Shown one piece after another: positions 27,513-46,150 of a DNA stretch of 60,090 bases. The stretch is from positions 1 through 60,090 of the forward strand of contig MEDZ01000076.1 in assembly GCA_001724275.1 (NCBI GenBank), written 5' to 3'. Made by a program: the position numbers and the translations under genes. The notes under the pieces are model-generated. The model saw only the letters and a list, made by a program, of their open reading frames with translations, was not told where the DNA came from and did not search any database. Within the stretch, counting starts at the first letter, position 1. The number at the start of each line of letters is the position of its first letter. Source of the DNA: Gemmatimonadetes bacterium SCN 70-22. Lineage in GTDB: Bacteria > Gemmatimonadota > Gemmatimonadetes > Gemmatimonadales > Gemmatimonadaceae.

Positions 27513-28364
27513 ATGATCTACGTCCTGCTCCCAGCCTACAACGAGGAAGACGCCATCCGGCCGCTGGTCGAGAAGATCGGCAAGGCGATGGCGAAGCTGC
27601 AGGCCGACTATCAGGTCGTCGTCGTGAATGACGGGAGTCGGGACCGCACGCTCGAACGCTGCCTCGAATTGGCGCGGCACCATCCCCTCCACGTCATTTC
27701 CCACAAGCTCAATCGCGGCCTTGGCGAGACCATCCGCGACGGGATGGAATACATCGCCGAAGTGGGGAGCCGCAGCGACATCGTCGTGCGCATGGATTGC
27801 GACGATACACACGATCCGGAGTACATCATCGGCATGGTGGAGAAGCTCCGGGACGGGTGGGAGGTCGTGATCGCCTCGCGCTACGCGCCGGGCGGAGGCC
27901 AGATCGGAGTTGACTGGTACCGGCGAACCATCAGCCGCTGCGCAAACCTGCTGATGAAGACCTGCTTCCCGATGCGCGATATCTGGGAGTACACCAGCGG
28001 ATTTCGCGCCTACCGTGTCGCATTGATCAAGGATGCGATCGCGATCTTCGGCAATCAGTTCATCGACCTCAAGGGGATGGGGTTCACCGGGACGGTGGAG
28101 AAGCTGGTGAAGTGCCGCATGCTCGGGGCGCGCGTCACCGAGCACGGCTTTGTCCTGCGCTATGACCAGAAGGTGGGACCAAGCAAGGTCATTACCTCGC
28201 TGACGACGCTGGGCTACCTGATGGTGATCGCGAAGTACATCGTGTACTGGGGCGACGTCGGGGCGCGTTGGAAGCTCGAGAGCGCGGAGCGCCAACGGGT
28301 GGCGTACGACGAGCGCGGAATGCCTCGCGAGACCGTGGAGCTGAAGAGCGCATGTGTGGCATAG
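27513..28364 (+). CDS. Family 2 glycosyltransferase (polyprenyl-phosphate type)
   Basis: 283 residues. ATG at 27513 starts directly at IYVLLPAYNEEDAIRPLV. The core has VVVVNDGSRDRTLERC, and the metal site is RMDCDDTHDPEYI. SRYAPGGGQIGVDWYRRTIS and YTSGFRAYRVALI are hallmarks of DPM1-like enzymes. Upstream in-frame sequence is shadow of the previous gene. It overlaps the asparagine synthetase start by 13 bases. Confidence 0.88.
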   Translation: MIYVLLPAYNEEDAIRPLVEKIGKAMAKLQADYQVVVVNDGSRDRTLERCLELARHHPLHVISHKLNRGLGETIRDGMEYIAEVGSRSDIVVRMDCDDTHDPEYIIGMVEKLRDGWEVVIASRYAPGGGQIGVDWYRRTISRCANLLMKTCFPMRDIWEYTSGFRAYRVALIKDAIAIFGNQFIDLKGMGFTGTVEKLVKCRMLGARVTEHGFVLRYDQKVGPSKVITSLTTLGYLMVIAKYIVYWGDVGARWKLESAERQRVAYDERGMPRETVELKSACVA

Positions 28365-30289
28365 CCGGGATCGTTTCGCATGACCTCGGAGCTGCGCCCG
28401 ACTCCGAAATGCTCGGAGCGATGCTCGACGCCATCGCCCACCGCGGTCCGGACGGCGAGGGAATGCACCTCGACGGGCCGGCGGCACTGGGGCACAAGCG
28501 GCTCGCCATCATCGACCTCGAGACAGGGCGGCAGCCCATGTCCAACGAGGACGGCTCCATCTGGATCACCTTCAACGGCGAGATCTACAACTACGTGGAG
28601 CTGCGCCGCGAACTGGCGCGGCACCATCAGTTCCGCACGCATAGCGACACGGAGGTCATCCTCCACCTGTACGAGGAGCTGGGCGAGCGCTGCCTGGAGC
28701 GGCTGAACGGGATGTTCGCGTTCGCTATCTGGGACAGCCGCCGCCAGCGGCTGTTCGCGGCGCGCGACCGCATCGGGATCAAGCCGTTCTACTGGGCCAT
28801 GACCGACCGGGCCCTCCTCTTCGCCAGCGAGCCCAAGGCGCTCCTGGCCACCGGCATGGTGAGCGCCGAGCCCGACAGCGTCGGACTCGAGGAGTACCTG
28901 ACCTTCCAGTTCTGCCTGGGCGAGCGCACGCTCTTCCGCGACATCCGCAAGCTGGAACCGGGGCACTACCTCACGTTCCGTCCCGGACGCGATCGCGCAC
29001 CTGCCGATGTCTGCTATTGGGACTACAACTACGAGCTCGACTTCCACCATACCGAGGACTACTACCGCGAGCAGCTGGTCGCCGTCCTGAACGATGCCAT
29101 CCGCTTGCAGCTTCGCAGCGACGTCCCGGTGGGAGCCCACTGCTCCGGCGGCATCGACTCGTCCACCGTCGTCTCGCTGGCCGCCCGTCACTATCCGCAC
29201 ACCTTCAAGACGTTCACCGGAGCCTTCCGCGAGGGACCGCAGTACGACGAGACGCGCTATGCGCGGGCAGTGGCCGAGAACGTGAACGCCCACTACCACG
29301 AGGTGTGGCCCTCGGCACGGGAGTTCGCCGACACCCTCCCGTGGCTCATCTACATGATGGACGAGCCAGCGGCGGGCCCTGGCCTCTTCCCGCAGTACGC
29401 CGTCTCGAAGCTCGCGCGCGACCATGTGAAGGTCGTGCTCGGTGGCCAGGGAGGCGACGAGCTGTTCGGCGGCTATGCGCGCTACCTCGTCGCATACCTC
29501 GAGCAGGCGCTCAAGGGCGCGATCTACGGGACCGGGAGCGACCCGCGCTACGTGGTCACCTGGGACTCCATCGAGCCGTCACTGGGGATGCTGAAGCAGT
29601 ACCGGCCGATGCTCCAGGGCTTCTTCAAGGACGGGTTGTTCGAGGAGATGGATCGGCGCTACTTCCGCCTCGTCTCGCGCATCGAGGATGCCGAGTCGCT
29701 CATCAGCGGCGACGTCTGGGGACCCACCGCGCACGATCGGATGTTCCAGTCGTACGCCCAGATCTTCAACAACCCCTCGACCAAGTCGTACTTCAACAAG
29801 ATGACGAACTTCGACCTCAAGACGCTCCTGCCGGCGTTGCTCCAGGTCGAGGATCGCACCAGCATGTCGGTCTCGCTCGAGTCGCGCGTCCCGCTGCTGG
29901 ATCACCGCATCGCCGAGTTGGTCACGCGCATGCCGCCCGCCATGCGCTTCAAGGGAGGCGATTCCAAGCGCATCTTCCGCGAGGCCGTCCAGCCCTTCAT
30001 CCCCGACGTCGTCTTCTCGCGCCGCGACAAGATGGGCTTCCCGGTCCCGCTCACCGAGTGGCTCCACGGTCCCATTCGTGAATTCGTGGGCGACGTGCTG
30101 CTCAGCGACCGTGCGCGCCAGCGGGGCGTGTATCGCATAGGGGGGGTGGAACGGCTGCTCGCAGGAGAGGCCGCGTTCGGGCGGCAGTTGTGGGGGCTCC
30201 TGTCGCTCGAGCTCTGGTTCCGGGCCTTCGTGGATGGCGAGCAGCTCCCGCGCCGGCGCCTGGGGAGCGCCGCAGCCGTCGTCTCGTGA
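28352..30289 (+). CDS. asnB: Asparagine synthetase (glutamine-hydrolysing)
   Basis: 645 residues, usual for AsnB. MCGIAGIVSHD exposes the catalytic Cys2 of the glutaminase domain, and FNGEIYNYVELR and RGPDGEG are conserved glutaminase segments. The synthetase domain has the ATP pyrophosphatase loop SGGIDSS (about 265-271) and GGQGGDELFGGYARY. In polysaccharide operons such proteins often amidate sugar acids or other carboxylates and need not make free asparagine. Because it keeps Cys2 it is distinct from the lasso cyclase at 32960-34861. Confidence 0.92.
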   Translation: MCGIAGIVSHDLGAAPDSEMLGAMLDAIAHRGPDGEGMHLDGPAALGHKRLAIIDLETGRQPMSNEDGSIWITFNGEIYNYVELRRELARHHQFRTHSDTEVILHLYEELGERCLERLNGMFAFAIWDSRRQRLFAARDRIGIKPFYWAMTDRALLFASEPKALLATGMVSAEPDSVGLEEYLTFQFCLGERTLFRDIRKLEPGHYLTFRPGRDRAPADVCYWDYNYELDFHHTEDYYREQLVAVLNDAIRLQLRSDVPVGAHCSGGIDSSTVVSLAARHYPHTFKTFTGAFREGPQYDETRYARAVAENVNAHYHEVWPSAREFADTLPWLIYMMDEPAAGPGLFPQYAVSKLARDHVKVVLGGQGGDELFGGYARYLVAYLEQALKGAIYGTGSDPRYVVTWDSIEPSLGMLKQYRPMLQGFFKDGLFEEMDRRYFRLVSRIEDAESLISGDVWGPTAHDRMFQSYAQIFNNPSTKSYFNKMTNFDLKTLLPALLQVEDRTSMSVSLESRVPLLDHRIAELVTRMPPAMRFKGGDSKRIFREAVQPFIPDVVFSRRDKMGFPVPLTEWLHGPIREFVGDVLLSDRARQRGVYRIGGVERLLAGEAAFGRQLWGLLSLELWFRAFVDGEQLPRRRLGSAAAVVS

Positions 30290-32575: not shown

Positions 32576-32610
32576 ACAGCGCTGCCCCCTGTTTCAGGGA
32601 GCAGCGCTGT
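32576..32610. terminator. Strong symmetric hairpin between convergent wecB and lasso precursor genes
   Basis: ACAGCGCTGC (32576-32585) pairs perfectly with GCAGCGCTGT (32601-32610). After one mismatch CCCTG pairs with CAGGG around a TTT loop. This is the most stable hairpin noticed in the window. It lies about 75 bases past the precursor stop on the minus strand and 100 bases past wecB on the plus strand, so it can serve both. There is no T-tract on either side. Confidence 0.55.
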
Positions 32611-32684: not shown

Positions 32685-32819
32685 TCAGGAGCAGCGAGCG
32701 CTGGGATCCGAAGTGCAGCCGTCGTTCCGCGTAGCCGCGCCGTCGAGCACGCCGTAGCGGCCCTGCAGCGTGATCTCGCGAAACGTTCCGAACTTGGTCA
32801 GTTCAGGAGACTTGTACAT
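32685..32819 (-). CDS. Lasso peptide precursor (A gene), 44 residues
   Basis: This short gene reads MYKSPELTKFG at its start and ARCS at its end. The leader has the exact spacing of lasso leaders: Tyr2, Pro5, Leu7, Gly11 and Thr17 (Y-x2-P-x-L-x3-G-x5-T). Thr at position -2 predicts cleavage after Leu18, giving a 26-residue core starting QGRYGVLDG. Cleavage one residue later would give a Gly-first core. Asp26 is the only acidic residue in ring range (position 8 or 7), so the isopeptide should form there. Cys35 and Cys43 in the tail could form a disulfide. The last residue is Ser44, matching the target of paeninodin-type kinases. A GGGAGG lies 10 bases before the ATG. The cyclase and kinase genes are just upstream on the same strand. 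Confidence 0.88.
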   Translation of the reverse strand: MYKSPELTKFGTFREITLQGRYGVLDGAATRNDGCTSDPSARCS

Positions 32820-32829
32820 GTAGATAGAT

Positions 32830-32835
32830 CCTCCC
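32830..32835 (-). promoter_or_regulatory. Strong ribosome binding site of the lasso precursor
   Basis: GGGAGG on the minus strand, 10 bases before the ATG at 32819. It is one of the best Shine-Dalgarno matches in the window and decides the start of the short gene. Confidence 0.8.
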
Positions 32836-32884
32836 TAAGACTCCGGGCACTGGCCCCGGCACCATGCGATCCCCTGTGACCGCA

Positions 32885-32914
32885 ATTCTAAGACACCTCG
32901 ATCGTTCAAGGCAA
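32885..32914 (-). promoter_or_regulatory. Sigma-70-like promoter for the lasso precursor gene
   Basis: On the minus strand, TTGCCT (32914-32909, 4 of 6 to consensus) and TAGAAT (32890-32885, 5 of 6) are separated by 18 bases. Transcription would begin near 32878, leaving an untranslated leader of about 60 bases before the precursor ATG. It lies between the cyclase stop and the precursor, so the precursor can be expressed independently of the enzyme genes. Confidence 0.6.
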
Positions 32915-32959
32915 GGGCAACTTCCTCCGCTCCCTCCCGGGAAACCCTTGCACCGCGCC

Positions 32960-34861
32960 CTACTCGGTCGATCGGAGCCACCACTCGGCCTGCAGCGCCG
33001 TCAGCAGCGCATGGGCCCGCTCGAGATCGTCCGACCTTCCAGCCAGGTAACTGTCGACCTCCTCCAACAACTTACGGTGGTCTACGACTCCGAGGTCCGC
33101 GAGAAGCATGCCAGCCCCGAATCCCTCCCGTCCCTCGCGCAGGTGCGCACGAAGCGTCCGGCCCAGGTACGTCACCGGTGTCCCCGTACGCTCCGCCCGC
33201 GGCGCGACGACCTCATCAGGGAGCAGACCCCGCATCGAATATCGCAGCAGGTGCTTGTTCTGTCTCCCGGAATTGCTTTCCCAGCGCGGGCGCGTGGCGG
33301 CAAACCGGACAATCCGGTTGTCGAGGAGGGGGGTCCGCAACTCTACACCCTCCCCCTGACAAATCGCGAACACCAACGCCGTGATGCGCTCGGGGTACGA
33401 GGCCCGCAGAAACCACGTGCGTCCCAGCGCCGAGAGCCCCTCGCCCCGCCGCCGCGGCCAGTCGATGCGCCGACGCGCCAGGAGGTCGCGACTTCGCCGC
33501 AACGGATCGGCAATCCATGCCGGGGGGTGACGCACATGATGGTCGCTCAGCGGGCGTCCGCCACGCACCCACGCCAGCGCGGCAAGAATTGCCGGGGACA
33601 GATTTGGCTGTACCGCGGTCTTGAAGACACGGTACGGCGTCACTCGGCCGAGCAGCACCTTCCACTCCCGGCGGAACTCGAGCAGCCGTCCTTGGCGAAG
33701 GAGGTCGGCGAGGAATACGGGAGAGGTCGAGAACCAGGGGTCGCCGCCGTTGCCGTTCAGGGCGACGTGCGCCCCTTCATGGCGACACCCACGCGCCAGC
33801 GCTCGGTTCCACAGCTCGTACGAATGGTAGATCGGTTCGTCGCGACGGCGGGCCCGGGCAAGCGACGGTTCGAAGTCCGGAACATCGCCGATCGGGATGA
33901 AATGTGGCTCCGCCCCCCAACGCCGCGTGGTCGCCTCGATCAGCTCGTCCTCGCGTCCGGGGTCGCCGGCCGGATGAGAGAATGACACCGACCGTAGCGC
34001 GGCCCCACTTCCTCCGCTCCCCAGCCGCCAATTTCCCGCGGCATAGATCGCCGGGGAATCGTAGCCGCCGCTCAGCATGACGGCGGTCCCACGCGGTAGA
34101 TCGGTTCGCTCCGCCACGGCTTCCGCGAGCAGGCGGCGCAGTTCCTCGGCTCCTTCCTCGAACGGTACGCCCGAGTCTTGCTCGAAGACCGGTACCTCCC
34201 ACCACCGCCGGACGGAACCCTTGCGCTCCGCGCTCCACTGCAACGCATGCCCACTCGGAATGCGATGGATGGCCGTGCAGGCCGTCTCTGTCGGAACGGC
34301 GAGGTCGATGTCTGCCGCATCTTCGCACAGCGCAATCACGTTCCACCCGTGCGGACAGCCGGGGACTGCGCGCACCTGGCGCAGCCTGGTCGCCACGGCA
34401 ATGCCACTGCCGATGTCGGCGTGAAACAGGGTGCGCGCTCCCGAGTGGTCTCGTGCCGCAAAGAGGACGTGCTCCTTCGCATCCCATGCGACGAAGGCGA
34501 ACTCCCCCTCCAGATGGTCGACGGCACGCCACTGCCACGCACGCACCGCAGCCAGGATCGCCGTCGCGGCCGGAGCCTCGCGGGAAAGCGGCGGCTCGGC
34601 CGCGCGCATCAGCGCGGCATTCAGCGCGTCACGATAGAACAAGGCCGCGTGGGCGATCACAGTGTAGCGGCCGTCAGTGGCGACCCTATGCTCCGCGCGC
34701 TCGTCCCACGCCGGTGACGCAACTCCGAGAACGACATCGGGAGCGGGACGGTGGAGGGCCACGGTCGCATCGTCCGCCATGCCAGCTGGAGCAAGCAGCG
34801 CGCGCACCCCATGGTCGTCGAGCGCGGCCGGGGCGCCCACGAGGGCGAGCAGCGACGTCAC
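32960..34861 (-). CDS. Lasso peptide macrolactam synthetase (C protein, asparagine-synthetase-like)
   Basis: 633 residues starting at a GTG that overlaps the kinase stop. Overall it follows AsnB, but the N-terminus is VTSLLALVG with no Cys at position 2, so the glutaminase site is lost, as in lasso cyclases. The ATP pyrophosphatase loop is intact as SGGYDSP (about 264-270), and NGNGGDPWFSTSPVFLADLLRQG is characteristic of lasso C proteins. The enzyme adenylates the side chain of an Asp or Glu in the core and closes the ring with the N-terminal amine. The precursor gene lies 140 bases downstream on the same strand. Confidence 0.88.
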   Translation of the reverse strand: MTSLLALVGAPAALDDHGVRALLAPAGMADDATVALHRPAPDVVLGVASPAWDERAEHRVATDGRYTVIAHAALFYRDALNAALMRAAEPPLSREAPAATAILAAVRAWQWRAVDHLEGEFAFVAWDAKEHVLFAARDHSGARTLFHADIGSGIAVATRLRQVRAVPGCPHGWNVIALCEDAADIDLAVPTETACTAIHRIPSGHALQWSAERKGSVRRWWEVPVFEQDSGVPFEEGAEELRRLLAEAVAERTDLPRGTAVMLSGGYDSPAIYAAGNWRLGSGGSGAALRSVSFSHPAGDPGREDELIEATTRRWGAEPHFIPIGDVPDFEPSLARARRRDEPIYHSYELWNRALARGCRHEGAHVALNGNGGDPWFSTSPVFLADLLRQGRLLEFRREWKVLLGRVTPYRVFKTAVQPNLSPAILAALAWVRGGRPLSDHHVRHPPAWIADPLRRSRDLLARRRIDWPRRRGEGLSALGRTWFLRASYPERITALVFAICQGEGVELRTPLLDNRIVRFAATRPRWESNSGRQNKHLLRYSMRGLLPDEVVAPRAERTGTPVTYLGRTLRAHLREGREGFGAGMLLADLGVVDHRKLLEEVDSYLAGRSDDLERAHALLTALQAEWWLRSTE

Positions 34862-35781
34862 GAATGCCAGCCGACGATGGTCCTGGCCACCGATTCGACG
34901 GACTCGAGGGTGCGCGCCACCTCGAGCCGGTACACCGGAACGTGCGACGCCAGTGTCGCACAGCGGTCGAAGACGCGGATCGACTCGACGCCGCCCATGA
35001 GTACCCCGAGCTTGGAATGCGTCATCAGCGTGACGGTGGCCAGCGCCGCGGGAAGCACGGTGCGCTGTACGAGCGGCGCCCCGGCTCTTCCCTCGACCGG
35101 GATCAGCTCGTACAAAGCGGCAAGGGGGACAGGGTCGTGCTGCACCAGGTCAGCGGGGAGCGCGTCGAAGGTGCGTTTCTGGCTGAGGCCCACGCGCCAG
35201 TCCCCCAGCGTTCCGAAACGCTCGGCGGCATCGCTCCACAGTCGCACCGAGTGCACCCCGGGCCGCGCGATCGCCTCCCTCGGATCGACTGGCAGCGTGT
35301 CGTCGGTGAGGAGCCGTGCTCCGAGCGAGGCGAGTGTCAGCGCCAGCGTCGACTTGCCCGAACCTTTCGGCGCAAGGAAGCCGATTCCGCTCCCGCCGAT
35401 GGCGACGCCGCTTCCGTGAAGGCACAGGAGACCCTGCTCGTGTGTGGCTACGGCGAGGACCCGGCCGAGGATGTCGATGCGGACGAGTTCCCGGTCGCTG
35501 TTCGCAACGGGATACCACGTGACCTCGGCTCCGGACGACGTAACGTCGAAGGTCCCCGTGTCGTCGAAGACGAGCCGAAGTCCACGTGGCGTCTGATGAA
35601 GTGCAGCCTCGATCCCGGTGGTCAGTTCGTCACGGCCGACGAGTGTGCAGGGCAGCTCCGGGGGCGGGGAGTCCTCGACGCAAAGCGTCCAGTCCGCCTC
35701 CGCGCCATCCTCGACGCTCCGGAGTTCCGGGAATGGGAAGGGAGCCGACAGGACGCCGCCGAAGACGCGATAGCGCAACAT
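34858..35781 (-). CDS. HPr-kinase-like protein, probable lasso peptide kinase
   Basis: About 307 residues from the ATG at 35781 (MLRYRVFGGVL); an ATG at 35835 would add 18 residues. The C-terminal half carries the P-loop APKGSGKST (about 138-146) followed by LGARLLTDDTLPVD, the arrangement of HPr kinase/phosphorylase. The HPr-binding loop region is otherwise divergent, and no HPr gene is near. Lasso clusters of the paeninodin type encode such a kinase, which phosphorylates the side chain of the C-terminal Ser of the precursor. The precursor here does end in Ser. The gene is translationally coupled to the cyclase. Confidence 0.8.
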   Translation of the reverse strand: MLRYRVFGGVLSAPFPFPELRSVEDGAEADWTLCVEDSPPPELPCTLVGRDELTTGIEAALHQTPRGLRLVFDDTGTFDVTSSGAEVTWYPVANSDRELVRIDILGRVLAVATHEQGLLCLHGSGVAIGGSGIGFLAPKGSGKSTLALTLASLGARLLTDDTLPVDPREAIARPGVHSVRLWSDAAERFGTLGDWRVGLSQKRTFDALPADLVQHDPVPLAALYELIPVEGRAGAPLVQRTVLPAALATVTLMTHSKLGVLMGGVESIRVFDRCATLASHVPVYRLEVARTLESVESVARTIVGWHS

Positions 35782-36017
35782 GAACGAGTGATGAACGTCG
35801 GGAACACAGGGATGGATCGACAGGACGCGCCGCATTGGGCACAGGCATTCACGCCCGATCGCGTAGCGGTACGTGCAATCCGCGCGCCTGCTCCTCGCGC
35901 TCGTGATGGCGCGGCCGAAAATTGCGCGCCACGAATCAAGAAAGATATTCGGACAGACCGTGCCATGCGGTCCGCGGATGTGCAGATTTGCCTCCATTCG
36001 AAGGCACATCTCCTGCA
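35782..36017. promoter_or_regulatory. Divergent region between lasso kinase and sulfatase-fold operon
   Basis: A relatively AT-rich patch lies at 35918-35950. On the plus strand TTGCGC (35922-35927) and GATATT (35944-35949), 16 bases apart, make a weak sigma-70-like pair. Immediately downstream GACCG-tgccatg-CGGTC (35956-35972) forms a dyad that could be an operator. No clear promoter for the kinase was found on the minus strand. Confidence 0.35.
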
Positions 36018-37928
36018 TTGACCAGACGCGTGACCCAGAATCCGGACCCGACAGCATCTCGTTCTGTCCGGGGCGTTCCGCCCGAGGGCGACGTCCCGGC
36101 CGCCGCGACCATCGTCTTCAGCGCCGCTATCGCGGCGGGTCTCGGGGAGCTCCTCGTCAGGGTACTGCTGCGGCACGTCGCCTCGACGTTCGACAATTCA
36201 TTCTACCTCAATCCCCAGGCGATCTGGATGGGAGGGCTCGCGAACCTCCCACTGTTCGCCCTGTTCGGTTGGGTCGCCTTCACGCTGGCGCGCATGCGGG
36301 GGGACCCCGCACCGTGGCGCTGGGTTCTTGGCGCCGTCGCGTGGCTGGGGGCGTTCGAGATCGCCCTCGTGTCGCGCCGGTTGCACATCGTGGCGCAGTG
36401 CATCGCCGCGGCCGGCATTGCCGCGGTCGCGTTGCGGGTGGCGGAGGGGTCACCCGGGCGGATCGCTCGAGTGGCGCGGCGCGCGACCGTCGTCCTGGCG
36501 GCAGTCTCCGCACTCGGGGGTGTCGCCTGGAACGTGCAGCGTGCCATGCATGAGCGGCGGGCGGTGGCTGCCCTTCCGGTCGCCCCTGACGGCGCACCGA
36601 ACGTCCTGCTCCTCATCCTCGACACCGTGCGGGCTTCGCACCTGAGCGTGTACGGATACGATCGCCCCACGACGCCGGGGCTCGAACGCTTTGCAGTCGA
36701 CGCCATCCGATTCGACCGGGCCATCGCCGCCGCGCCGTGGACACTCCCCAGCCACGCCTCGATCTTCACGGGGCGCTATCCGTTCGAGCTGCGAGTCGGA
36801 TACGATGAGCCGCTCGAGCACGACGCTCCGACGCTCGCCGAGACGCTCGGCGCGGTGGGATATCGCACCGGAGGGTTCGTGGCCAACACCGTGTATGGCT
36901 CGTACCTGCACGGACTGGATCATGGGTTCCAGCGCTACCGCGATTACCCCATGTCGGTGAGCGAGCTCTTCGGGGCGTCGACGCTCAATCGCTTGCTCAT
37001 GCGAATCTGGAACCTGGCGACGCAGTCGTACGTGGAGGCCGGCGTGAAGGACGCCCCGGTCGTGTCGGGCGAGTTCACCGACTGGCTCGACGGGATTCCC
37101 AGGGGGCGCCCGTGGTTCGCCTTCCTCAACTTCTTCGACGCGCACATGCCGTACGACCCGCCAGCGCCGTACGACCTGATGTTCGCCGCGCGTCCGCCGC
37201 GCGTTCGGTCTGTCTACGCCGAGTCGCGCCACCAGCGCGATTCATCGGACGTGCACGGGCTGCGGGACGCCTATGATGGGGCGATCGCGTATCTGGACGC
37301 GGAGCTGCAGCGCCTGTTCCGGGACCTCGAGGCGCGGGGCCAGCTCGACAACACCGTGATCATCGTGACCGCAGACCACGGCGAGGCATTCGGCGAGCAC
37401 GGCTTCCTCAACCATGGTTCGAGCCTGTATCTCCCCGAGGTGCACGTCCCCCTCCTCGTGCGCCTGCCGGGAAAGGCAATGCGTGGCTGCGTCGTGAGCG
37501 ACTGGGTGAGCCTGCGCGACATCGCCGCCACGATCAGCGAGCTGACGCCGCTGGGCCGCGGTGCGTTCCCCGGAAGCTCGCTCCTGTCGAGGTGCCGCAC
37601 GGCGGTGAGCGGCGCGGTGGCGAACGGTGGCGCCGAAGCGGCGAGCGATGCGGTGGGATCGCCTGCGTTGTCGATCGTGAGGGCACGCCGGCACCTGAAG
37701 CCCTGGTACCCAGCGGCGAGCGGCGACATCCGCGGCCTCATGGAGGGGCGATTCACCCTGCTCGAGCACGAGGACGGGCGCGTCGAGCTGTTCGACGTCG
37801 ACGCTGACCCCGGGCAACAGCACGACCTTGCCCGGATTCCGTCCGTCGCGGCGGACCGGGCTCGGCTGGAAGGCGAGCTGCGCGCGCACTTCGCGCCACC
37901 GCACGCCAACTCACCGGATCGGCCCTGA
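36018..37928 (+). CDS. Membrane-anchored sulfatase-fold hydrolase/transferase 1
   Basis: About 636 residues; the start is uncertain (TTG at 36018 or GTG at 36030, with no strong ribosome binding site). About four or five N-terminal helices (to residue 180) precede a sulfatase-fold domain: PNVLLLILDTVRASHLSVYGYDRPTTP supplies the first metal site, and TADHGEAFGEHG the second. The nucleophile position reads APWTLPSHASIFTG: where sulfatases have Cys or Ser before x-P-S-R, this has Thr (about residue 242) and His in place of Arg. That points to a Thr nucleophile, as in phosphoethanolamine- or glycerolphosphate-transferases of the same superfamily. It is coupled to the next paralogue (TGATG). Confidence 0.8.
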   Translation: MTRRVTQNPDPTASRSVRGVPPEGDVPAAATIVFSAAIAAGLGELLVRVLLRHVASTFDNSFYLNPQAIWMGGLANLPLFALFGWVAFTLARMRGDPAPWRWVLGAVAWLGAFEIALVSRRLHIVAQCIAAAGIAAVALRVAEGSPGRIARVARRATVVLAAVSALGGVAWNVQRAMHERRAVAALPVAPDGAPNVLLLILDTVRASHLSVYGYDRPTTPGLERFAVDAIRFDRAIAAAPWTLPSHASIFTGRYPFELRVGYDEPLEHDAPTLAETLGAVGYRTGGFVANTVYGSYLHGLDHGFQRYRDYPMSVSELFGASTLNRLLMRIWNLATQSYVEAGVKDAPVVSGEFTDWLDGIPRGRPWFAFLNFFDAHMPYDPPAPYDLMFAARPPRVRSVYAESRHQRDSSDVHGLRDAYDGAIAYLDAELQRLFRDLEARGQLDNTVIIVTADHGEAFGEHGFLNHGSSLYLPEVHVPLLVRLPGKAMRGCVVSDWVSLRDIAATISELTPLGRGAFPGSSLLSRCRTAVSGAVANGGAEAASDAVGSPALSIVRARRHLKPWYPAASGDIRGLMEGRFTLLEHEDGRVELFDVDADPGQQHDLARIPSVAADRARLEGELRAHFAPPHANSPDRP

Positions 37929-39691
37929 TGGCGACGGCCGACAGCCCGACGACTGCCGACGGTTCCACGCCGCTCCGGTCGTGGCGACTGGTGGCAGTCG
38001 GCGCATGGGCCGGCCTGCTGGCCGGACTGGCCGAGGGTGCGCTGCTCGCCGCCACTCGACATGTCCCGACGATCCTCTCGCCGCACAAGGCCCCCCTCGA
38101 TGTCGTGTGGATTGCGCCACTCGCCAACGCCATCGTCTTCGCCGCCGCGAGCGCTGGGCTGTCGCTGATCGGCACCCTTTGGCGGAGACGGTTGGGTTCG
38201 CGGTTCGACACCTTGATCGTCGGCAGCGCGCTGTTTGGGATGCTCGCGATTCCGCTCATCACCCTCGAAGTCCTCTTCCTTCCAAGCGCGCTACTCCTCG
38301 CCCTGGGGGCGGCCGTGCTCCTGACGCGCAGGTTCGGGAGCCGGATTGTGTCCGCGACGGGAATGCTCGCGCAGCGGCTGCTTGTCCTCCCCCTCGTGGT
38401 CGCCGTCCTGTCCCTGATCACCACGGGGGTGACCCGGTACGCCGAATGGCGGGTTGCGGGTGCGCTCCCCGCCGCCGCCGTCGGGGCGAAGAACGTGTTG
38501 ATCCTCGTCCTCGACACGGTGCGCCGGGATCGCTTTGCACGCGACGTCCGCTCGATGCTGGCGCCAACCATTGACAGCCTGCACGATGTGGGGACGTGGT
38601 ACCGGCAAGCCTGGTCGACCTCATCGTGGTCGCTCCCCTCACAGGCATCGCTCCTGACCGGACGCTACCCGCACGAGCATGGTGCCGACTGGCCGGGGAT
38701 CGGGCTGAGGTCGGAAGTGCCCACGCTCCCCGAGGTGTTGGCGGAACACGGCTACGCGACCGGGGCGTTCTCGGGTAATTCGTCCTGGGTCGTCCCCGAG
38801 CATCTCGGGCGGGGATTCGCACGCTTCGAGGCGTATCGCGCTATCGACGTCGTGCAGCGCCTGGCCGGCTACCGCGCCGTGAAGCCGATCCTCATGGCAA
38901 TGGGCGTGCACGATTCGGGATACGGGAGACAGGCCCCTTCGCTGCGCTCGGCGCTGGCGCGATTCATCGACGACTATCATGGGCGCCCGTTCTTCGCGTA
39001 CGTGTGCCTCATGGACGTGAACCAGGCGCTGCACCGCCGCCGGCTGTCACACCCCGCCTGGGAGGACGACCCGGACGCCGACCAGGTTCGCGCCGCGTAC
39101 GATTCATCGCTTCGCGTGGTGGACGGCGAGATCGCGGGCATCCTGGCGGACTTGCGGACGCGAGGCGTGCTCGACAACACGCTCATCGTGATCACGTCCG
39201 ACCATGGGGAATCGTTCGGGGCGGAGGGGACTCGTGACCACGACCCGGAGGGGCATGGCTCGAGCCTGTATCCGGAGCAGACGCGCGTCCCACTCCTGGT
39301 CATCCTTTCCAAGGCGAACCAGCGGGCCGAGATCGTCGACGTCCCTGTCAGCATCCGGGCGCTTGCCTCCACCGTGCTCGAGGCGCTGGGTTTCCCGGAC
39401 GCGACGAGATTCGGTCGCGGACTCCCCATCCACGGTGCCGCGACGGAAGCCGCAGCGCCCGCCGCCGCCAGCGCGGTGCTCCTGACGCTGCGATATGCGG
39501 ACGTGCATGAAGACGCGTTGGTGGAAGGGACGTCGTTCCTGCTGCGCCGGGCGGCCGATCGCGGGCAGGAATCCAGACTCTACGACATCGCTCGTGACCC
39601 CTTCGCCACGCGCGAGCTCGACGACGAGGAGAAAGTGCAGGAGATGCAGCAGCGTCTCGACTCGCTGCTAGGCGCGTCCTCGGTCCCGTGA
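37928..39691 (+). CDS. Membrane-anchored sulfatase-fold hydrolase/transferase 2
   Basis: 587 residues; the ATG shares a base with the previous stop. N-terminal helices (about residues 15-180) are followed by NVLILVLDTVRRDRFARD and ITSDHGESFGAEGTRDHDPEGHGSSLYPEQTRVPLLV, the two metal-binding regions. The nucleophile segment reads SSWSLPSQASLLTG, giving Ser (about 235) with Gln in the place of the usual Arg. It thus differs from its three paralogues, which have Thr. It ends 8 bases before the convergent paralogue's stop. Confidence 0.8.
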   Translation: MATADSPTTADGSTPLRSWRLVAVGAWAGLLAGLAEGALLAATRHVPTILSPHKAPLDVVWIAPLANAIVFAAASAGLSLIGTLWRRRLGSRFDTLIVGSALFGMLAIPLITLEVLFLPSALLLALGAAVLLTRRFGSRIVSATGMLAQRLLVLPLVVAVLSLITTGVTRYAEWRVAGALPAAAVGAKNVLILVLDTVRRDRFARDVRSMLAPTIDSLHDVGTWYRQAWSTSSWSLPSQASLLTGRYPHEHGADWPGIGLRSEVPTLPEVLAEHGYATGAFSGNSSWVVPEHLGRGFARFEAYRAIDVVQRLAGYRAVKPILMAMGVHDSGYGRQAPSLRSALARFIDDYHGRPFFAYVCLMDVNQALHRRRLSHPAWEDDPDADQVRAAYDSSLRVVDGEIAGILADLRTRGVLDNTLIVITSDHGESFGAEGTRDHDPEGHGSSLYPEQTRVPLLVILSKANQRAEIVDVPVSIRALASTVLEALGFPDATRFGRGLPIHGAATEAAAPAAASAVLLTLRYADVHEDALVEGTSFLLRRAADRGQESRLYDIARDPFATRELDDEEKVQEMQQRLDSLLGASSVP

Positions 39692-39699
39692 CGTAAGAA

Positions 39700-41541
39700 C
39701 TAGTGCAGCCCCCTACGCGGGGGAGGCCAGGGAGTTCCCAGCGTTTTCGCGATGATCGCGCGATGGGTCGCGATGATGGCTGCGGCTTCTGACGTCGATG
39801 CGCGGTCGCGCACTTCGGCGGGATCGTCGCGCCAGTCGAAGAGCTGTTCGACTCCCCGGCCGTCGCGCATGTAGTGCCAGCTGGAGTCGATGATCCCACG
39901 CAGTGGCCCGAATCGCGTCGGATTGTTCGGCGAGGGATTCACCGCAGCCGCCGCCTCGGCGAGCGCAGGGCTGGGTGACACGGCGCCGTCGCTTCGCCAC
40001 GTGACGGCGAGGGAGGTCCCGGGGAGCGAGCGTCCCGTTCCGCCCACCAGGTCGAGGAGCGTGGCCGCGAGGTCGCGAAGGGACACAACGTCCGAAATGC
40101 GCCGACCGGCGGGAACTCGACCGGGGGCCCGCACCAGTAGCGGGACCCGTAGCAACGTCCGGTAGAGCGAGTTGGTGTGGCCAAACAGGCCATGTTCGCC
40201 CCACTGCTCGCCATGGTCCGAGGTGACGACAAGGATGGTCCGATCCAGGTCACCGCGCCCACGCAGACGCTCGACGATCGTCCCGATCACGCTATCCTCG
40301 TAAGCGATCCCCCCGTCATACCGATCCCTTCCCTCACGCCCCCGCTCGAATCGATAGCGGAAGCCATCCGGTGGGTCGTGAGGGCCATGCGCGTCCATGA
40401 AGTTCAGCATCGCAAAGTACGAGCGTTCCCCGACACCGTCGCGCCACTGGAAGAAGTGGTCCGCGATCTGTGCAGCGGTCGGTGTCTGGGACGTCCGGAC
40501 CGTCACGGTGCGCAGTCGAGGATGCGTGATCGCCTCGCGCACGCGCCATCGCTCGCCCTTGAAGATCCCGTCCATGAGGAGTTGCCCCGATCCCGTCTGC
40601 GATAGCGTGGTACTCCAGAGCGCCTGTTGCAGGGTGAGGGGATAGTCCTCGTAGTGCGTGAACCCCCGGGACAGACCGACCTGGTAGCCGGCATAGCCCG
40701 TGTTGGCCATGAAGGCGCCGGACACGTACCCGCGTTCGCCCAGGCGCTCCGCGAGGGTGGGGAGCGAGTCGTGCATGGGGTGCAGGTAGTCTGCGCCGGC
40801 CTGGCTGGCGTAGGCGCCCGTCATCATGCTGGCGTGCGATGGGGCGGTCCACGGCGCAACCGAGTGGGCTTGGTCGAAGACGGACGCCTCGGGCGCCAAC
40901 GACTCGAGCACCGGGGTCGTGCGACGCTCGTAGCCGTAGAGGCTCAGGCTCGAGGCGCGCACCGTGTCGAGGATCAGGAGGATCACGTTAGGCGCGCCGG
41001 GCCGGGCTTCGGGAAGCGATGCGACGCGCCCCGCCTCGCCGAAGCGATGTCGCGCGCCTGCGGCGAGGCCGGCGAATCCCAACACGAACGCCCCCGCGAC
41101 CGCCAGCGCCCGCGTCAGCCGCATGCGACGCCCAGGTTGCCGGGCAATCCATGCGCCGCACTGGACACCGACCCCGGCGGCGAGGGCCAGCTGGGCATAC
41201 GAATGCAGCTGCTGCGCGAGGAGGAGCACCGAGAATGCCGTCACGGACGCAAGGACGGACGCCACCAGTACGAGCGGCAGGCGACGTCGCAGCACCAGCA
41301 CCACGGCGACGACCGGGATCCCCAGCGCGAGAAATGCCACCAGGTAGCCGCCGAGTGCCAGCCATGCGAACTCGCGGCTGACCCAGGTGAGTTGGTGCAG
41401 GATCCGATAGCGGAATTCGGTGAAGGCGGTGTGGAGCAGCGCGGCGGCGACCGCGCCTGCCACGGCCAGCCACCACACGTCGACCAGCGTGGCGACTGGA
41501 CGGCGGGTCGCGCCCTCGGCGTCCCTCGAGGGCGCACTCAT
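39700..41541 (-). CDS. Membrane-anchored sulfatase-fold hydrolase/transferase 3
   Basis: 613 residues from the ATG at 41541, which overlaps the stop of the next paralogue (ATGA). A block of five helices fills residues 20-170. The catalytic domain has PNVILLILDTVRASSLSLYGYERRTTP, nucleophile segment APWTAPSHASMMTG (Thr about 231), NFMDAHGPHDPP and TSDHGEQWGEHGLFGH. It follows the same plan as the plus-strand pair, so the four genes are paralogues arranged tail to tail. The last gene of a five-gene minus operon. Confidence 0.8.
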   Translation of the reverse strand: MSAPSRDAEGATRRPVATLVDVWWLAVAGAVAAALLHTAFTEFRYRILHQLTWVSREFAWLALGGYLVAFLALGIPVVAVVLVLRRRLPLVLVASVLASVTAFSVLLLAQQLHSYAQLALAAGVGVQCGAWIARQPGRRMRLTRALAVAGAFVLGFAGLAAGARHRFGEAGRVASLPEARPGAPNVILLILDTVRASSLSLYGYERRTTPVLESLAPEASVFDQAHSVAPWTAPSHASMMTGAYASQAGADYLHPMHDSLPTLAERLGERGYVSGAFMANTGYAGYQVGLSRGFTHYEDYPLTLQQALWSTTLSQTGSGQLLMDGIFKGERWRVREAITHPRLRTVTVRTSQTPTAAQIADHFFQWRDGVGERSYFAMLNFMDAHGPHDPPDGFRYRFERGREGRDRYDGGIAYEDSVIGTIVERLRGRGDLDRTILVVTSDHGEQWGEHGLFGHTNSLYRTLLRVPLLVRAPGRVPAGRRISDVVSLRDLAATLLDLVGGTGRSLPGTSLAVTWRSDGAVSPSPALAEAAAAVNPSPNNPTRFGPLRGIIDSSWHYMRDGRGVEQLFDWRDDPAEVRDRASTSEAAAIIATHRAIIAKTLGTPWPPPRRGLH

Positions 41542-43355
41542 CGCGGCACCGAGGTCGCCGACGGCATGGAATCGGCGAGCGCCCGCCGGAGGGCGGAGTC
41601 GAGCGCGGGCACGAGCAGGCGATGCGCACCCTTCGCGAGGTTCGACTCCTCGCGTGGGTCGCGTCGGTACGCGTAGAGCTCCACCGACCCGTCTCCATTC
41701 CTGATGTAGTGCAGCGAATCGTCGGCCAGCGAGCGCATATTCCCCCACGCATTGAGCGCGCCGGAGTCGGGATTGACGCCGCGACTCACTTCGGAGACGG
41801 CGGCACTCCCGCGCGCCTCGGGCGATCTCCACGTCGCGGCGAGCGACGTCCCCCCCAATCCTCGTGGATCGGGGAGGCCGCTGAGCTCGACCAGCGTTGC
41901 GGCCAGGTCACGGAGCGAGACCTGTTGCGTCACGCGCCTGCCCGCCGGCACGCGCGACGGATAGCGGATGATGAGCGGGACGTGCAGCAGCTGTTCGTAG
42001 AGTGAGTTGCTGTGCCACCCGAGGCCGTGTTCACCGAACTGCTCCCCGTGATCCGCCGTGATCACGACGATCGTGTTGTCGAGGGTTCCGCGCGCCGCGA
42101 GCGCGTCGCGAAGGGCGGCGAGGGCGTCGTCGAGGTAGCGGACGGCGCGCTCGTACTTGTCTAGCCCGCGATCGCTGGGACCGAAGAGCGTGTCGTACCG
42201 CGCGGGCGATGAGTACGGCCCGTGCGCGTCGAAGAAGTTCAGGAAGGCAAAGTAGGGCCGGTCGGGGTGCTCCTGCTGCCAGCGCAGGAATGCACCCGTG
42301 ATCATGTCGGCCGACTTGGGAGCATTGTCCGGATAGGAGAACCGCGGCTCGAAGTCGAAGCGGGCGAGCGCGCGCGCCGCCCCACCCATCCAATGCGCGT
42401 GCACGAGCTGGTCCCACGCGTCGCGGAGTGAGCCGGCCTGGGCAAGGGTGGTGGACAGGACCACCTGCCCCAGCGAGCGACGATGATCCTCGTAGCGAGC
42501 AAAGCCGCGGTCGAGGCCGAAGCCGCGAGGCGTGGCAACCAGGTTGGCAGTGAAGCCTGCCGTGGCGTAGCCGTACGAGGCGAAGACGTCGGCCAGGGTG
42601 GCGTGCGCTCCGTCGAGGGGACGCGTCCAATCGCCGGCCTGCTGGCTGGGATAGCGACCCGTGAAGATCGACGCGTGCGAAGGGAGCGTCCACGGTGCAG
42701 TCGAGAACGCCCAATCGAAGGTGACGGCCGTCTGCGCGAAGGCGTCGAGCTTCGGCGTTGTCGGGCGCCCCTCCCCGTAGAGGGACATCGAGCTGGCGCG
42801 TACCGTATCGAGGATGAGGAGGAGGACGTTGGGCGCCCCCGCGGGAGCCGGACCTAACGCGGCAGTCGCGTTCCGTTCGTGCAGGGCGCGCCGTCCAGTT
42901 TGGTATCCCCAGGCTCCCAGCGTAACGAGCGCGAGGAGCAACGCGGTGCGAGCCAGCCGAGGGCGCCAGCGCGACGCATCGGCGTCGATGATCGCTGCCG
43001 TTCGCACCCCGATCCCGAGGCCGAGCATGAGCGACGCGTATTGGTGCAGCCGCGGGAAGAGGAGGAGGCCGCCGAAGGCCGCGAGCGAGGCGAAGAGGAA
43101 GGTTGCCACGCGCAGCGCGGGGAGGCGGGGGAGCGCCGCGGCGACCGCAACCAGCAGCAAGGCGAGCGGGAGGAAGATGACCACATAGCCCAGCGGCGCC
43201 ATCCACGCGGTGTCTGGCGACATCCAGGTGCGCAGGAGGTCGTGCAACAGTTCGCGCCGGATCCAGGAGACGATGGCGTGAAACAACCCGGCCGCGAGGG
43301 CGAAGGCCGCGGCGGCGAGCAGGACGTCGAGGATGCGGCGCGAGCGAGGGCTCAT
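41538..43355 (-). CDS. Membrane-anchored sulfatase-fold hydrolase/transferase 4
   Basis: 605 residues. N-terminal helices are in residues 8-160. The domain has PNVLLLILDTVRASSMSLYG, nucleophile segment APWTLPSHASIFTG (Thr about 222), NFFDAHGPYSSP and TADHGEQFGEHGLGWHSNSLY. It is preceded 12 bases upstream by the acyl carrier protein gene and overlaps the following paralogue. A TTA-GGT Leu-Gly pair occurs near 42855. The catalytic domain faces the periplasm by prediction, where it could modify a surface polymer or lipid. Confidence 0.8.
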   Translation of the reverse strand: MSPRSRRILDVLLAAAAFALAAGLFHAIVSWIRRELLHDLLRTWMSPDTAWMAPLGYVVIFLPLALLLVAVAAALPRLPALRVATFLFASLAAFGGLLLFPRLHQYASLMLGLGIGVRTAAIIDADASRWRPRLARTALLLALVTLGAWGYQTGRRALHERNATAALGPAPAGAPNVLLLILDTVRASSMSLYGEGRPTTPKLDAFAQTAVTFDWAFSTAPWTLPSHASIFTGRYPSQQAGDWTRPLDGAHATLADVFASYGYATAGFTANLVATPRGFGLDRGFARYEDHRRSLGQVVLSTTLAQAGSLRDAWDQLVHAHWMGGAARALARFDFEPRFSYPDNAPKSADMITGAFLRWQQEHPDRPYFAFLNFFDAHGPYSSPARYDTLFGPSDRGLDKYERAVRYLDDALAALRDALAARGTLDNTIVVITADHGEQFGEHGLGWHSNSLYEQLLHVPLIIRYPSRVPAGRRVTQQVSLRDLAATLVELSGLPDPRGLGGTSLAATWRSPEARGSAAVSEVSRGVNPDSGALNAWGNMRSLADDSLHYIRNGDGSVELYAYRRDPREESNLAKGAHRLLVPALDSALRRALADSMPSATSVPR

Positions 43356-43367
43356 GGACGATCTCCG

Positions 43368-43622
43368 CTAGGGCTGGAGCTTTGACCGCACGAGGTCGGC
43401 GATCTGCGTGAGCGTGTCGAGGTGGTCGGCGCTCGCCTCGTGCGCGGCGACCGCGATCCGATACTGATCCTCGGGAAATGTGACGAGGCGCACCGTCGCC
43501 AGCGAGTCGAGGATGCCGGTCGAGATGAGCGGCGTGTCGTCGGCCAGTTCCGACGGATCGGCGCCGGGAAGGAAGGCGTCGAGGACGTTACTCTTCACGG
43601 CAGTGACGACCGGGTCATTCAT
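43368..43622 (-). CDS. Acyl carrier protein
   Basis: 84 residues from the ATG at 43622 (MNDPVVTAVKSNVLD). The phosphopantetheine attachment motif is TPLISTGILDSLATV with Ser40, followed by acidic helix II/III sequence (ASADHLDTLTQIADLV). Length and charge match discrete ACP and DltC-like proteins. It lies between a phosphodiesterase-fold gene and two sulfatase-fold genes on the same strand, away from any fatty acid synthase gene. An acyl or aminoacyl group carried by it could be used to modify the polymer or a lipid. A PaaK-like adenylating enzyme 10 kb away (53841) is a candidate loader, but this is a guess. Confidence 0.85.
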   Translation of the reverse strand: MNDPVVTAVKSNVLDAFLPGADPSELADDTPLISTGILDSLATVRLVTFPEDQYRIAVAAHEASADHLDTLTQIADLVRSKLQP

Positions 43623-43789
43623 GAAGCGTGACGGGGTCGGGGTTGGGAGGCGGTCGGCCGCGTCGCCGTCGAGGGGACGCGCCGATGAGCGAGGCGGCTG
43701 GGGACGGGACTGTCGTTCGTCCGACGGCACCCTCGGTGGCGCACCCGTCAGTAGCAACTTTGGTGCTACGTGCAGGGGCGGCGTCCGGA

Positions 43790-45676
43790 TCACCGTTCCG
43801 CCGCGCGAGAGCAGTGATGGGCAAACCGCGCGCGCCCTTCGTGCACGGGACGCGGGGCAGCTCCGAGCGTGTCGAGGATGCTCGGCGCCATGTCAATCAT
43901 GGCGAGGTCCGCAGGATCGAATCGGTGGTTCGAGAAGAAGACGCCCGGGACGAGCGCGGGTGAGACGATGTGGTCGCCCCCCCACTTGCGCGTGTTGTCC
44001 TCGAACGTGGCATCGCCGAAGCCACCCAGCGCGGTGGCCCACGAGACGCGATATCCGGCGTTGAAGTCGACGACGACGTCCGGTGACTCGTCGGCGTACG
44101 TCCCGCGGTACAGCTCGGCTCGCGTGCGTCCACCGAGCACGGCCACCGCTCCACGCGCCGAGTCGTGCAGGCCGGAGAGGGCAGCTGCAATGCGCCCGCC
44201 GAGCGCCGGCGCCTCCGTGACCGGAACGATCCCGTCGCGTTCGCGCCCGGCGACGTTCAGGTAGATGCTCCCGAGCCCCAGTGCATAGGCGCGCGTGCGC
44301 CCCCAGTCGACCTCTCGCAGGAAGTCTGGGGTGGAGGCGCGCGGCGCAGCGCCCCCGCGCAGGACCAGCAGCCCCTGCTCGTGCAGCCAGTTGTTGAGGT
44401 TGAGCCCGCGCTGGAACGAGGCAAAGCCGTGGTCGGAGAGGACCAGGAAGAGGGTCTCGTCGTCCATCGCCGCCATTGCCATCCCCACGGCGCGATCGCA
44501 GCGCCGATAGTGTTCCTCGATGACGTGGGCGAGTTCGCGGACGCGCGCGCGGTCCTCGCCGTTGGCCGGGTGCCCCGGCTCGCGGAAGCGCCAGAACATG
44601 TGCTGCACGCGGTCAGGCGTGTCGAAGAGGACGAAGAAGAATCCGTCGCGGAGGCGCGCCAGCTCGAACTGCATCATCGTCTCTCGCTCGCGCATCACTT
44701 CCTCGCACTGCGCGAGGTACGCCTCCTCGGAGAAGCGCCCGTTGGACAGGCCGGCGTGGTCCTCCACCATCCCCGTGGTGTAGTACGGCCGCCCCAGCGC
44801 CCGGGCCAGCTCGGCGGCGTAGTGTGCCGGGTGCGAGATGGGATACAGCGGGGCGCGCGGGTCGAAGTTGGCGGGCGAGGCGTACAGCTCCACGTGCGGC
44901 TCGGTGCGCACCAGGAGGAAGCGCATGGTCGCGCGCACGCGTGCCAGGCGCCCGGCGCGGAACGTCAGCTGCAACCAGTCACTCCACTCCCCCAGGCGCA
45001 CCGACAGGCGCGCGGGCTCGCCGTGGGTTTCCACGGTGGCGATCCCGGCACCTCGATCGACCGTCAGGGTGAGCGGTGCCGTGACATCGACGCGCGTCCT
45101 CGGGTGACGGGGCCCCACGAGGTGGCCGTGCAGGCGCTCGCCCGCACGTTCGAGTCGCACGAGGACCTCGCTCTCGCGAGCGCGTGCCGCCGGGTCCTCC
45201 GAGAGGATCGTCGCGGTTCCGAGGCCCCCCCGAATGTCGGGGACCCCCATCCCTGACAGGAGGCGCCCCGCGAGCCGGTCCGGGGGATAGGTGGCCGGGC
45301 AGCGGAGGACGGTGGCCGGGATCCCCGCGTCCGCCAGGTCCTCCCACAGGGGCGTCCCGCGGCGCAGGTTCACCGCGCGCGGGGGGAGCCAGGCGCTCTC
45401 CTGCTCGTACCTGCTGAGCGACAGGTCGGGGAGGTAGGTCGCGGGGTCGCGGCGAAGGAAGTCGAAGATCCCGTGTCCACCGGGATTCACCCCGGTGGCG
45501 AAGGTGGACCAGGCGACGGGAGTCTGCGCCGGCGTGGTCGTCGCCAGTCGCGCATAGCCGCCCATGCGGCGAAGCCGCTCGAGGTGCGGAAGCTCACCGC
45601 GCTGCAACATGGGCTCGACGATGTCGGGGGCGAACCCGTCGAGACCGATGACGATGACCTTCCGCGCGCGCCGCAC
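43790..45676 (-). CDS. Alkaline phosphatase-superfamily phosphodiesterase/nucleotide pyrophosphatase-like protein
   Basis: 628 residues from a GTG at 45676. The first metal region is VIVIGLDGFAPDIVEPML, the nucleophile segment is TPAQTPVAWSTFATG (Thr), and the second metal region is FLVLSDHGFASF with HFD/DTPDRVQHMFWRF between. This is the type I phosphodiesterase/nucleotide pyrophosphatase branch of the same superfamily as the sulfatase-fold neighbours. No signal peptide or membrane helix is obvious, so it may be cytoplasmic. It follows the small membrane peptide gene by 42 bases. A 167-base gap without an evident gene separates it from the ACP gene. Confidence 0.85.
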   Translation of the reverse strand: MRRARKVIVIGLDGFAPDIVEPMLQRGELPHLERLRRMGGYARLATTTPAQTPVAWSTFATGVNPGGHGIFDFLRRDPATYLPDLSLSRYEQESAWLPPRAVNLRRGTPLWEDLADAGIPATVLRCPATYPPDRLAGRLLSGMGVPDIRGGLGTATILSEDPAARARESEVLVRLERAGERLHGHLVGPRHPRTRVDVTAPLTLTVDRGAGIATVETHGEPARLSVRLGEWSDWLQLTFRAGRLARVRATMRFLLVRTEPHVELYASPANFDPRAPLYPISHPAHYAAELARALGRPYYTTGMVEDHAGLSNGRFSEEAYLAQCEEVMRERETMMQFELARLRDGFFFVLFDTPDRVQHMFWRFREPGHPANGEDRARVRELAHVIEEHYRRCDRAVGMAMAAMDDETLFLVLSDHGFASFQRGLNLNNWLHEQGLLVLRGGAAPRASTPDFLREVDWGRTRAYALGLGSIYLNVAGRERDGIVPVTEAPALGGRIAAALSGLHDSARGAVAVLGGRTRAELYRGTYADESPDVVVDFNAGYRVSWATALGGFGDATFEDNTRKWGGDHIVSPALVPGVFFSNHRFDPADLAMIDMAPSILDTLGAAPRPVHEGRARFAHHCSRAAER

Positions 45677-45718
45677 GTCCGGATCGGGGGACGGAGGGGG
45701 CGGGCGCGCCGCCGCCCC

Positions 45719-45853
45719 TTATTGCTTGGAGGACAACTTCGACGCGATCAGCTTCACGGCACCCACCACCCGTCGCCAGAACATGAGGAAGAAGCCGGCG
45801 ATGGCGGCAAAGACGGACGCGATCGGCATCAGGGAGTCGGGACCGATATACAC
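45719..45853 (-). CDS. Small single-helix membrane protein, 44 residues
   Basis: Starts at a GTG at 45853 with GGAGAG 6 bases upstream; the longer in-frame reading is Arg/Pro-rich and unlikely. The sequence has one hydrophobic helix (MPIASVFAAIAGFFLMFW, residues 9-26) followed by a basic, Lys-rich tail (RRVVGAVKLIASKLSSK), so the tail should be cytoplasmic. It leads the minus-strand operon containing the phosphodiesterase-fold protein, ACP and two sulfatase-fold proteins. I do not recognise a family; a membrane anchor or accessory subunit for the neighbouring enzyme is possible. Confidence 0.65.
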   Translation of the reverse strand: MYIGPDSLMPIASVFAAIAGFFLMFWRRVVGAVKLIASKLSSKQ

Positions 45854-46150
45854 GTAGCTCTCTCCTGGAGTGTTGCGGGGGGGCTGAGCCACCCGTCGTG
45901 AAGGCGCGCCGAGCCGCGGTCGCCAGCGGCGAAGGATCGTCCGGGTCGACCTGCGAGGCAACGCTATTGCAAGATCAGGGCACGAACGATCCCCCACCCC
46001 CCTCCCGGAGCCTCGGGCACCCTTCGCGCGGCGCGACGTCTGGCGCTGGCCGGCGCGACTATTGTTATCCGAGGGCCCCGTCCACGAGGACGCACGAGGG
46101 GGCGAAAGCGTAGCAGCGTCGGCACTTCCATCTCTCCACCAGGTAAAGAC
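45854..46150. other. Divergent intergenic region
   Basis: About 300 bases between the small membrane protein operon and the sulfate-activation operon. AT-containing patches at 45960-45972 and 46060-46072 (actattgttatcc) are promoter-like, without clear paired boxes. The PAPS synthase has AGGT 7-10 bases before its ATG. No riboswitch-like structure was recognised. Confidence 0.35.

Follow-up and report, generated by a model that had tools for sequence, protein, structure and literature searches.

We identified in Gemmatimonadetes bacterium SCN 70-22 a lasso-peptide locus that is likely one half of a split pathway: a cassette of precursor (A), cyclase (C), and kinase (K) genes matured in trans by the leader-binding protein B1 and the leader protease B2, both encoded at a second locus between rpsG and fusA. 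The cassette was found in a window of 60,090 nucleotides, by which we mean the whole stretch of DNA analyzed (contig MEDZ01000076.1). The window locus is real and probably functional; it belongs to a known kind, and its division over two loci is unusual.

Table 1. Features of the lasso locus in the window and related loci at the rpsG-fusA site.
Feature	Position	Strand	Basis
Lasso precursor A, 44 aa	32685..32819	-	NF033521 above cut-off; single copy in genome; dN/dS; aligned with 16 other precursors
A leader, residues 1-18	32766-32819	-	
A core QGRYGVLDGAATRNDGCTSDPSARCS, residues 19-44	32688-32765	-	
Lasso cyclase C, 633 aa, GTG start overlapping the K stop	32960..34861	-	Lasso clade; no Cys2; SGGYDS; 75% identity in sister species
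HPr-kinase-like tailoring kinase K, 307 aa from ATG at 35781	34858..35781	-	Invariant residues; fold; start backed by family alignment
Promoter-like site in C-A spacer, TTGCCT-18-TAGAAT	32885..32914	-	Consensus match; -10 region kept in sister species
Strong hairpin 3' of A	32576..32610	-	Folding energy -31.7 kcal/mol; sister-species counterpart -28.5
str-region lasso clusters or B halves in the family	L014, L015, L045, L046, L049, L050, L053-L055, L059, L066-L068, L070, L074, L075		

The precursor gene translates as MYKSPELTKFGTFREITLQGRYGVLDGAATRNDGCTSDPSARCS and is preceded by GGGAGG. The sequence-only reading had described a 44-codon gene whose leader carries Tyr2, Pro5, Leu7, Gly11, and Thr17, and the gene was found exactly as stated, with all five residues present. 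The YxxPxL-type leader with Thr at position -2 was recognized in the alignment of 17 precursors and by the NCBIfam model NF033521 (lasso_leader_L3; 24.2 bits against a curated cut-off of 19), an existing NCBI model that already names this leader. A profile of the 17 precursors, of which the window sequence is itself one row, found exactly one A-type gene in the genome (E 8e-16). When compared with the copy in a sister species (G002; DAIESF010000004.1, a Gemmatimonadetes MAG), A showed 15 synonymous and 4 nonsynonymous codon differences (dN 0.056, dS 0.739) and no amino-acid change in the leader. Because the differences are mostly synonymous and the leader is unchanged, A is a real coding gene for a conserved protein and not a chance ORF; it is under purifying selection. 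The gene is conserved beside cyclase orthologs within the genus and across Gemmatimonadaceae, a point on which the sequence-only reading had staked its claim.

If the core begins after Thr17-Leu18, an acidic residue falls within core positions 7-9, as Asp8, and the family alignment agrees. A core start at Gly20, with Thr at -3 and a seven-residue ring, was considered and set aside, as family members in which Gly immediately follows T-Q (ELTQ/GKSDPGFD, Asp8) and a recurrent Gly2 favor Thr at -2. Gln at core position 1 is unusual: in the metanodin paper, Asn1 is reported as a first, and Gln at this position is mentioned only in a predicted peptide (PMC12670498). Alternatively, Gln1 could close to pyroglutamate. 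Comparison of the window core, QGRYGVLDGAATRNDGCTSDPSARCS, with that of the sister species, QGRYGVLDGGATRNDGCTADPAGRCS, revealed that both internal serines are replaced by alanine in the latter, which leaves the terminal serine as the sole serine in common, while two core threonines and two tail cysteines are kept. Since the cysteine pair is conserved, a tail disulfide is possible. The predicted product carries a Gln1-Asp8 ring, a C-terminal phosphate, and perhaps one tail disulfide. The monoisotopic masses calculated for it are 2638.161 (reduced), 2636.146 (one disulfide), 2718.128 (reduced, with phosphate), and 2716.112 (disulfide and phosphate), the phosphate adding 79.966.

The cyclase begins MTSLLAL and has no Cys2, where asparagine synthetases have MCG, while the SGGxDS motif is retained as SGGYDS; the protein is, as described earlier, asparagine-synthetase-like and devoid of the glutaminase cysteine. 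Clustering of C with ordinary asparagine synthetases would have contradicted the sequence-only reading. We built a tree from window C, ten family homologs, six cyclases from plasmid loci that carry an annotated lasso B2, and nine asparagine synthetases with an N-terminal Cys, three of them from the window genome. The lasso-type cyclases, window C included, were separated from all asparagine synthetases with 100/100 support. C scored 109.5 against TIGR01536 (cut-off 267.1), and it and its relatives likewise remain below the curated NCBIfam cut-offs. The named loci closest to C belong nearly all to Gemmatimonadaceae, Gemmatimonadales, or Gemmatimonadetes MAGs. A true amidotransferase of the same fold does occur in the surrounding polysaccharide cluster (28268-30289), and C might on that account be read as an ordinary asparagine synthetase or amidotransferase of this cluster, with A a chance ORF. 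The tree, the missing Cys2, and the conservation and dN/dS of A all contradict such a reading, which we regard as extremely improbable.

The kinase residues H120, K141, D158, and D159 are invariant across 32 sequences, comprising window K, 30 family homologs, and one Paracoccus lasso-cluster kinase; His, Lys, Asp, and Asp residues are reported to be essential in lasso kinases (PMC9266682). A structural model of K (mean pLDDT 88) matched HPr kinase and related PEP carboxykinases. Sequence profile scores were weak (Hpr_kinase_C 20.0, cut-off 33.3; TIGR04352 36.5, cut-off 200), and the thresholds of the HPr-rel-A system (TIGR04352/TIGR04353) were missed both by K and by B1 (23.8, cut-off 35). The description of the third protein as HPr-kinase-like is thus borne out by an HPrK/PEPCK fold and the His-Lys-Asp-Asp residues, and its true start fits the end coordinate that the sequence-only reading had given.

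Precursor A ends in Ser, as paeninodin-type precursors do, and this terminal Ser is a plausible phosphate acceptor, with comparative support from the sister-species core. It is also conceivable, if unlikely, that the lasso peptide is as proposed and K phosphorylates another residue (Thr, or several sites) or a target other than the precursor. The lasso kinase BsfK of Bradymonas modifies Ser3 and not the terminal Ser (PMC10368454), the two core threonines of A are conserved in the sister species, and the similarity of K to named kinases is low at the sequence level. Against this, the terminal Ser is the only one shared by the two species, many precursors in Gemmatimonadaceae end in Ser, and K adjoins the A/C region in 30 of 32 lasso-cyclase loci, the remaining two ending at a contig edge.

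In the window, all three genes lie on the minus strand and run K, C, A; the stop of K falls within the GTG start codon of C, and A follows C after approximately 140 bases. The site in the C-A spacer is suggestive of a promoter, and the hairpin after A is suggestive of a transcript end, though it has no good T run. In the sister species, A-C-K likewise lies between a wecB-like gene and a sulfatase. An empty site was sought in a third member of the genus (G001), but no close ortholog of the window wecB region was found there. The window also encodes four sulfatase-fold proteins in a row, two per strand, followed by an acyl-carrier-like protein and a type I phosphodiesterase (35922-47899), with a fused APS kinase/ATP sulfurylase nearby (46151-47899). 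A Paracoccus plasmid (L125; NZ_CP067230.1) carries PqqD, lasso B2, cyclase, serine kinase, and ABC transporter genes beside polysaccharide genes, so a lasso cluster near such genes is not unique to the window.

No B1 or B2 gene is present in or beside the window locus. Genome-wide (G000; 4.7 Mb, 84 contigs, 99.98% complete), we found one Transglut_core3/B2 gene and one PqqD/B1 gene, which overlap each other on another contig (C30). B2, PqqD/B1, lasso cyclase, and precursor are each present in single copy. The B1/B2 pair is followed by an ABC ATPase, an ABC-2 permease, and a PF14907 nucleotidyltransferase (NT), and the block lies between rpsG and fusA. B2 passes the lasso B2 model NF033537 (64.5, cut-off 33), and B1 matches the lasso RRE TbiB1 (5v1u, E 5.7e-7). 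Neither a cyclase nor a lasso-motif precursor was found in this rpsG-fusA half. The sister species is split in the same way, with B1-B2-ABC-permease-NT next to fusA and A-C-K elsewhere; in both species, the A, B, and C genes do not form one contiguous cluster, the two halves lying on separate contigs with their own flanking genes. Contamination or mis-binning as the source of the split was rejected, as both halves recur in the sister species at consistent identity. In the third member of the genus, the rpsG-fusA gap holds all parts as a single block, which includes two precursors. Of the lasso locus originally proposed, A and C hold as lasso genes and K holds as a kinase; the three genes are incomplete, leader recognition and protease being encoded elsewhere.

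The histories of the two halves were compared by phylogeny. The B half of the window genome and its sister species groups with G007, G013, G029B, G030, and G054 (100/100), and its grouping with G001 was rejected (AU test, p 0.006). The best placement of window C, with weak support, is beside G001 and the second cyclase of G007; its joining the G013 group was marginally rejected (AU test, p 0.049), and the corresponding test for K gave p 0.13. The halves appear to differ in origin, though the AU tests are mixed and fall short of clean proof. A G007-like ancestor in which two systems shared one B2 would fit this pattern, if one A-C-K set was later lost and the other moved to a new place.

Given these seemingly different histories, the B1/B2 pair of the window genome may have evolved with another precursor. 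The two halves seem to come from different lasso subfamilies, and it could be argued that they do not cooperate, A-C-K being a non- or half-functional leftover and the rpsG-fusA B1-B2 pair the relic of another, lost lasso system. We consider this quite improbable: each half has stayed intact in both species, whose C proteins differ by about 25%, the selection on A and the retained catalytic residues of C and K argue against a leftover, and there is one B2 per genome with no other precursor or cyclase found for it to serve in either species.

Under the split pathway that we favor, the enzymatic steps, the action in trans, the ring, the disulfide, and the phosphate are all inferred. K would phosphorylate precursor A, most likely at the C-terminal Ser. 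This step would precede leader cleavage, an order borrowed from paeninodin, where, according to a review, the kinase acts before cleavage (PMC9266682). B1, supplied from the rpsG-fusA contig, would bind the YxxPxL leader, and B2 would cut after residue 18, with Thr at -2. C would then activate Asp8 of the core with ATP and couple it to the Gln1 amino group, so that an eight-residue ring encloses the tail. By analogy, the product may be secreted by the ABC exporter of the rpsG-fusA locus, and the NT encoded there may modify the phosphate as PsmN does (PMC9266682).

The sequence-only reading had described the lineage as one with few known lasso peptides. At the genome level it proved rich, with about thirty cyclase loci accompanied by precursors and kinases in 118 sampled Gemmatimonadaceae genomes. 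We found no characterized Gemmatimonadota lasso peptide in the open papers that we searched; subscription journals may hold one. Most other surveyed loci of the family are contiguous, the commonest gene order being B1-B2-C-A-K-ABC-permease-NT. Judged by the presence of rpsG and/or fusA within the retrieved stretch, 16 genomes from eight genera have a cluster or B half in the rpsG-fusA gap. No relevant paper emerged when the literature was searched for lasso genes together with rpsG or fusA. The str-operon site may stem from coexpression, from an insertion long ago, or from some connection with translation.

Several loci depart from the contiguous arrangement. In genus g22, the second loci (L056-L058) have a cyclase and no local B2, L057 having long flanks, and the same holds for G104 (L065), where L064 ends at a contig end. 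G029 carries C-A-K-ABC-permease and NT without B1/B2 (L062) and, on a separate contig next to fusA, B1-B2-A-K-ABC-permease without a cyclase (L075); this genome also looks split; its assembly is only 77% complete. In G007, two cyclases, two precursors, two kinases, and one B2 are found in one block (L066, 7972-18910), as if two lasso systems shared one leader protease. We tentatively raise the possibility, about which we are more doubtful than confident, that the str-operon locus is a shared hub in the family, where one B1-B2-exporter-NT set matures dispersed A-C-K cassettes that have no leader protease, the product in the window genome being a Gln1 lasso peptide. If true, this would explain the split in the window genome and G029, the second g22 loci without B2, and the G007 block.

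Some lasso-leader precursors lack an acidic residue (Asp or Glu) at core positions 7-9 (L067 8180-8350, L070 7279-7506, L066 9900-10112, and L075 1491-1778). Their first core acid is at 13-14 (G013, G030), 15 (G007), or 23 (G029B), and most have a common tail like PxIGxxDC. These precursors may form larger rings, follow other chemistry, or have a wrongly placed core start. Separately, the G102 cyclase (L073, 2286-4414) is broken by an in-frame TAA, so L073 may be decaying or misassembled.

If true, the division described here would give a kinase-tailored lasso pathway in which the genes for precursor and cyclase are apart from those for leader recognition and proteolysis. Such a pathway matters for genome mining, where B and C are usually expected side by side, and for the question of whether a single leader-processing set can serve several cyclases. 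It also connects lasso genes with a recurrent rpsG-fusA site in a phylum that is known largely through metagenomes.

Among known systems, the paeninodin-type clusters (PadeK, ThcoK, SyanK; PMC9266682) share with the window locus a T(-2) leader, a terminal Ser, an asparagine-synthetase-like cyclase, and an HPr-kinase-like enzyme with His-Lys-Asp-Asp. Unlike them, the window locus has its B genes elsewhere, the order K-C-A, a Gln1 ring start, and two tail cysteines. The bsf cluster of Bradymonas sediminis has the same kinds of parts (A, B1, B2, C, D, K, and N) and is bordered by ribosomal protein genes, as are many contiguous Gemmatimonadaceae clusters (PMC10368454). However, bsf is contiguous, with Ile(-2) and a phosphorylated Ser3 (PMC10368454), whereas the window peptide has Thr(-2), lacks Ser at position 3, and ends in Ser. 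The contiguous Gemmatimonadaceae clusters have homologous A, C, and K genes and B1-B2-ABC-permease-NT at the same str-operon site, but in the window genome and its sister species, among the genomes examined, A-C-K lies in a polysaccharide locus, in permuted order. Finally, some RiPP pathways have enzymes encoded outside the cluster, as with lanthipeptide proteases (PMC8960859); they resemble the present case in that the maturation protease is supplied from elsewhere in the genome. In contrast to these, the RRE, protease, exporter, and tailoring gene here stay together as a second, intact block within the str region.
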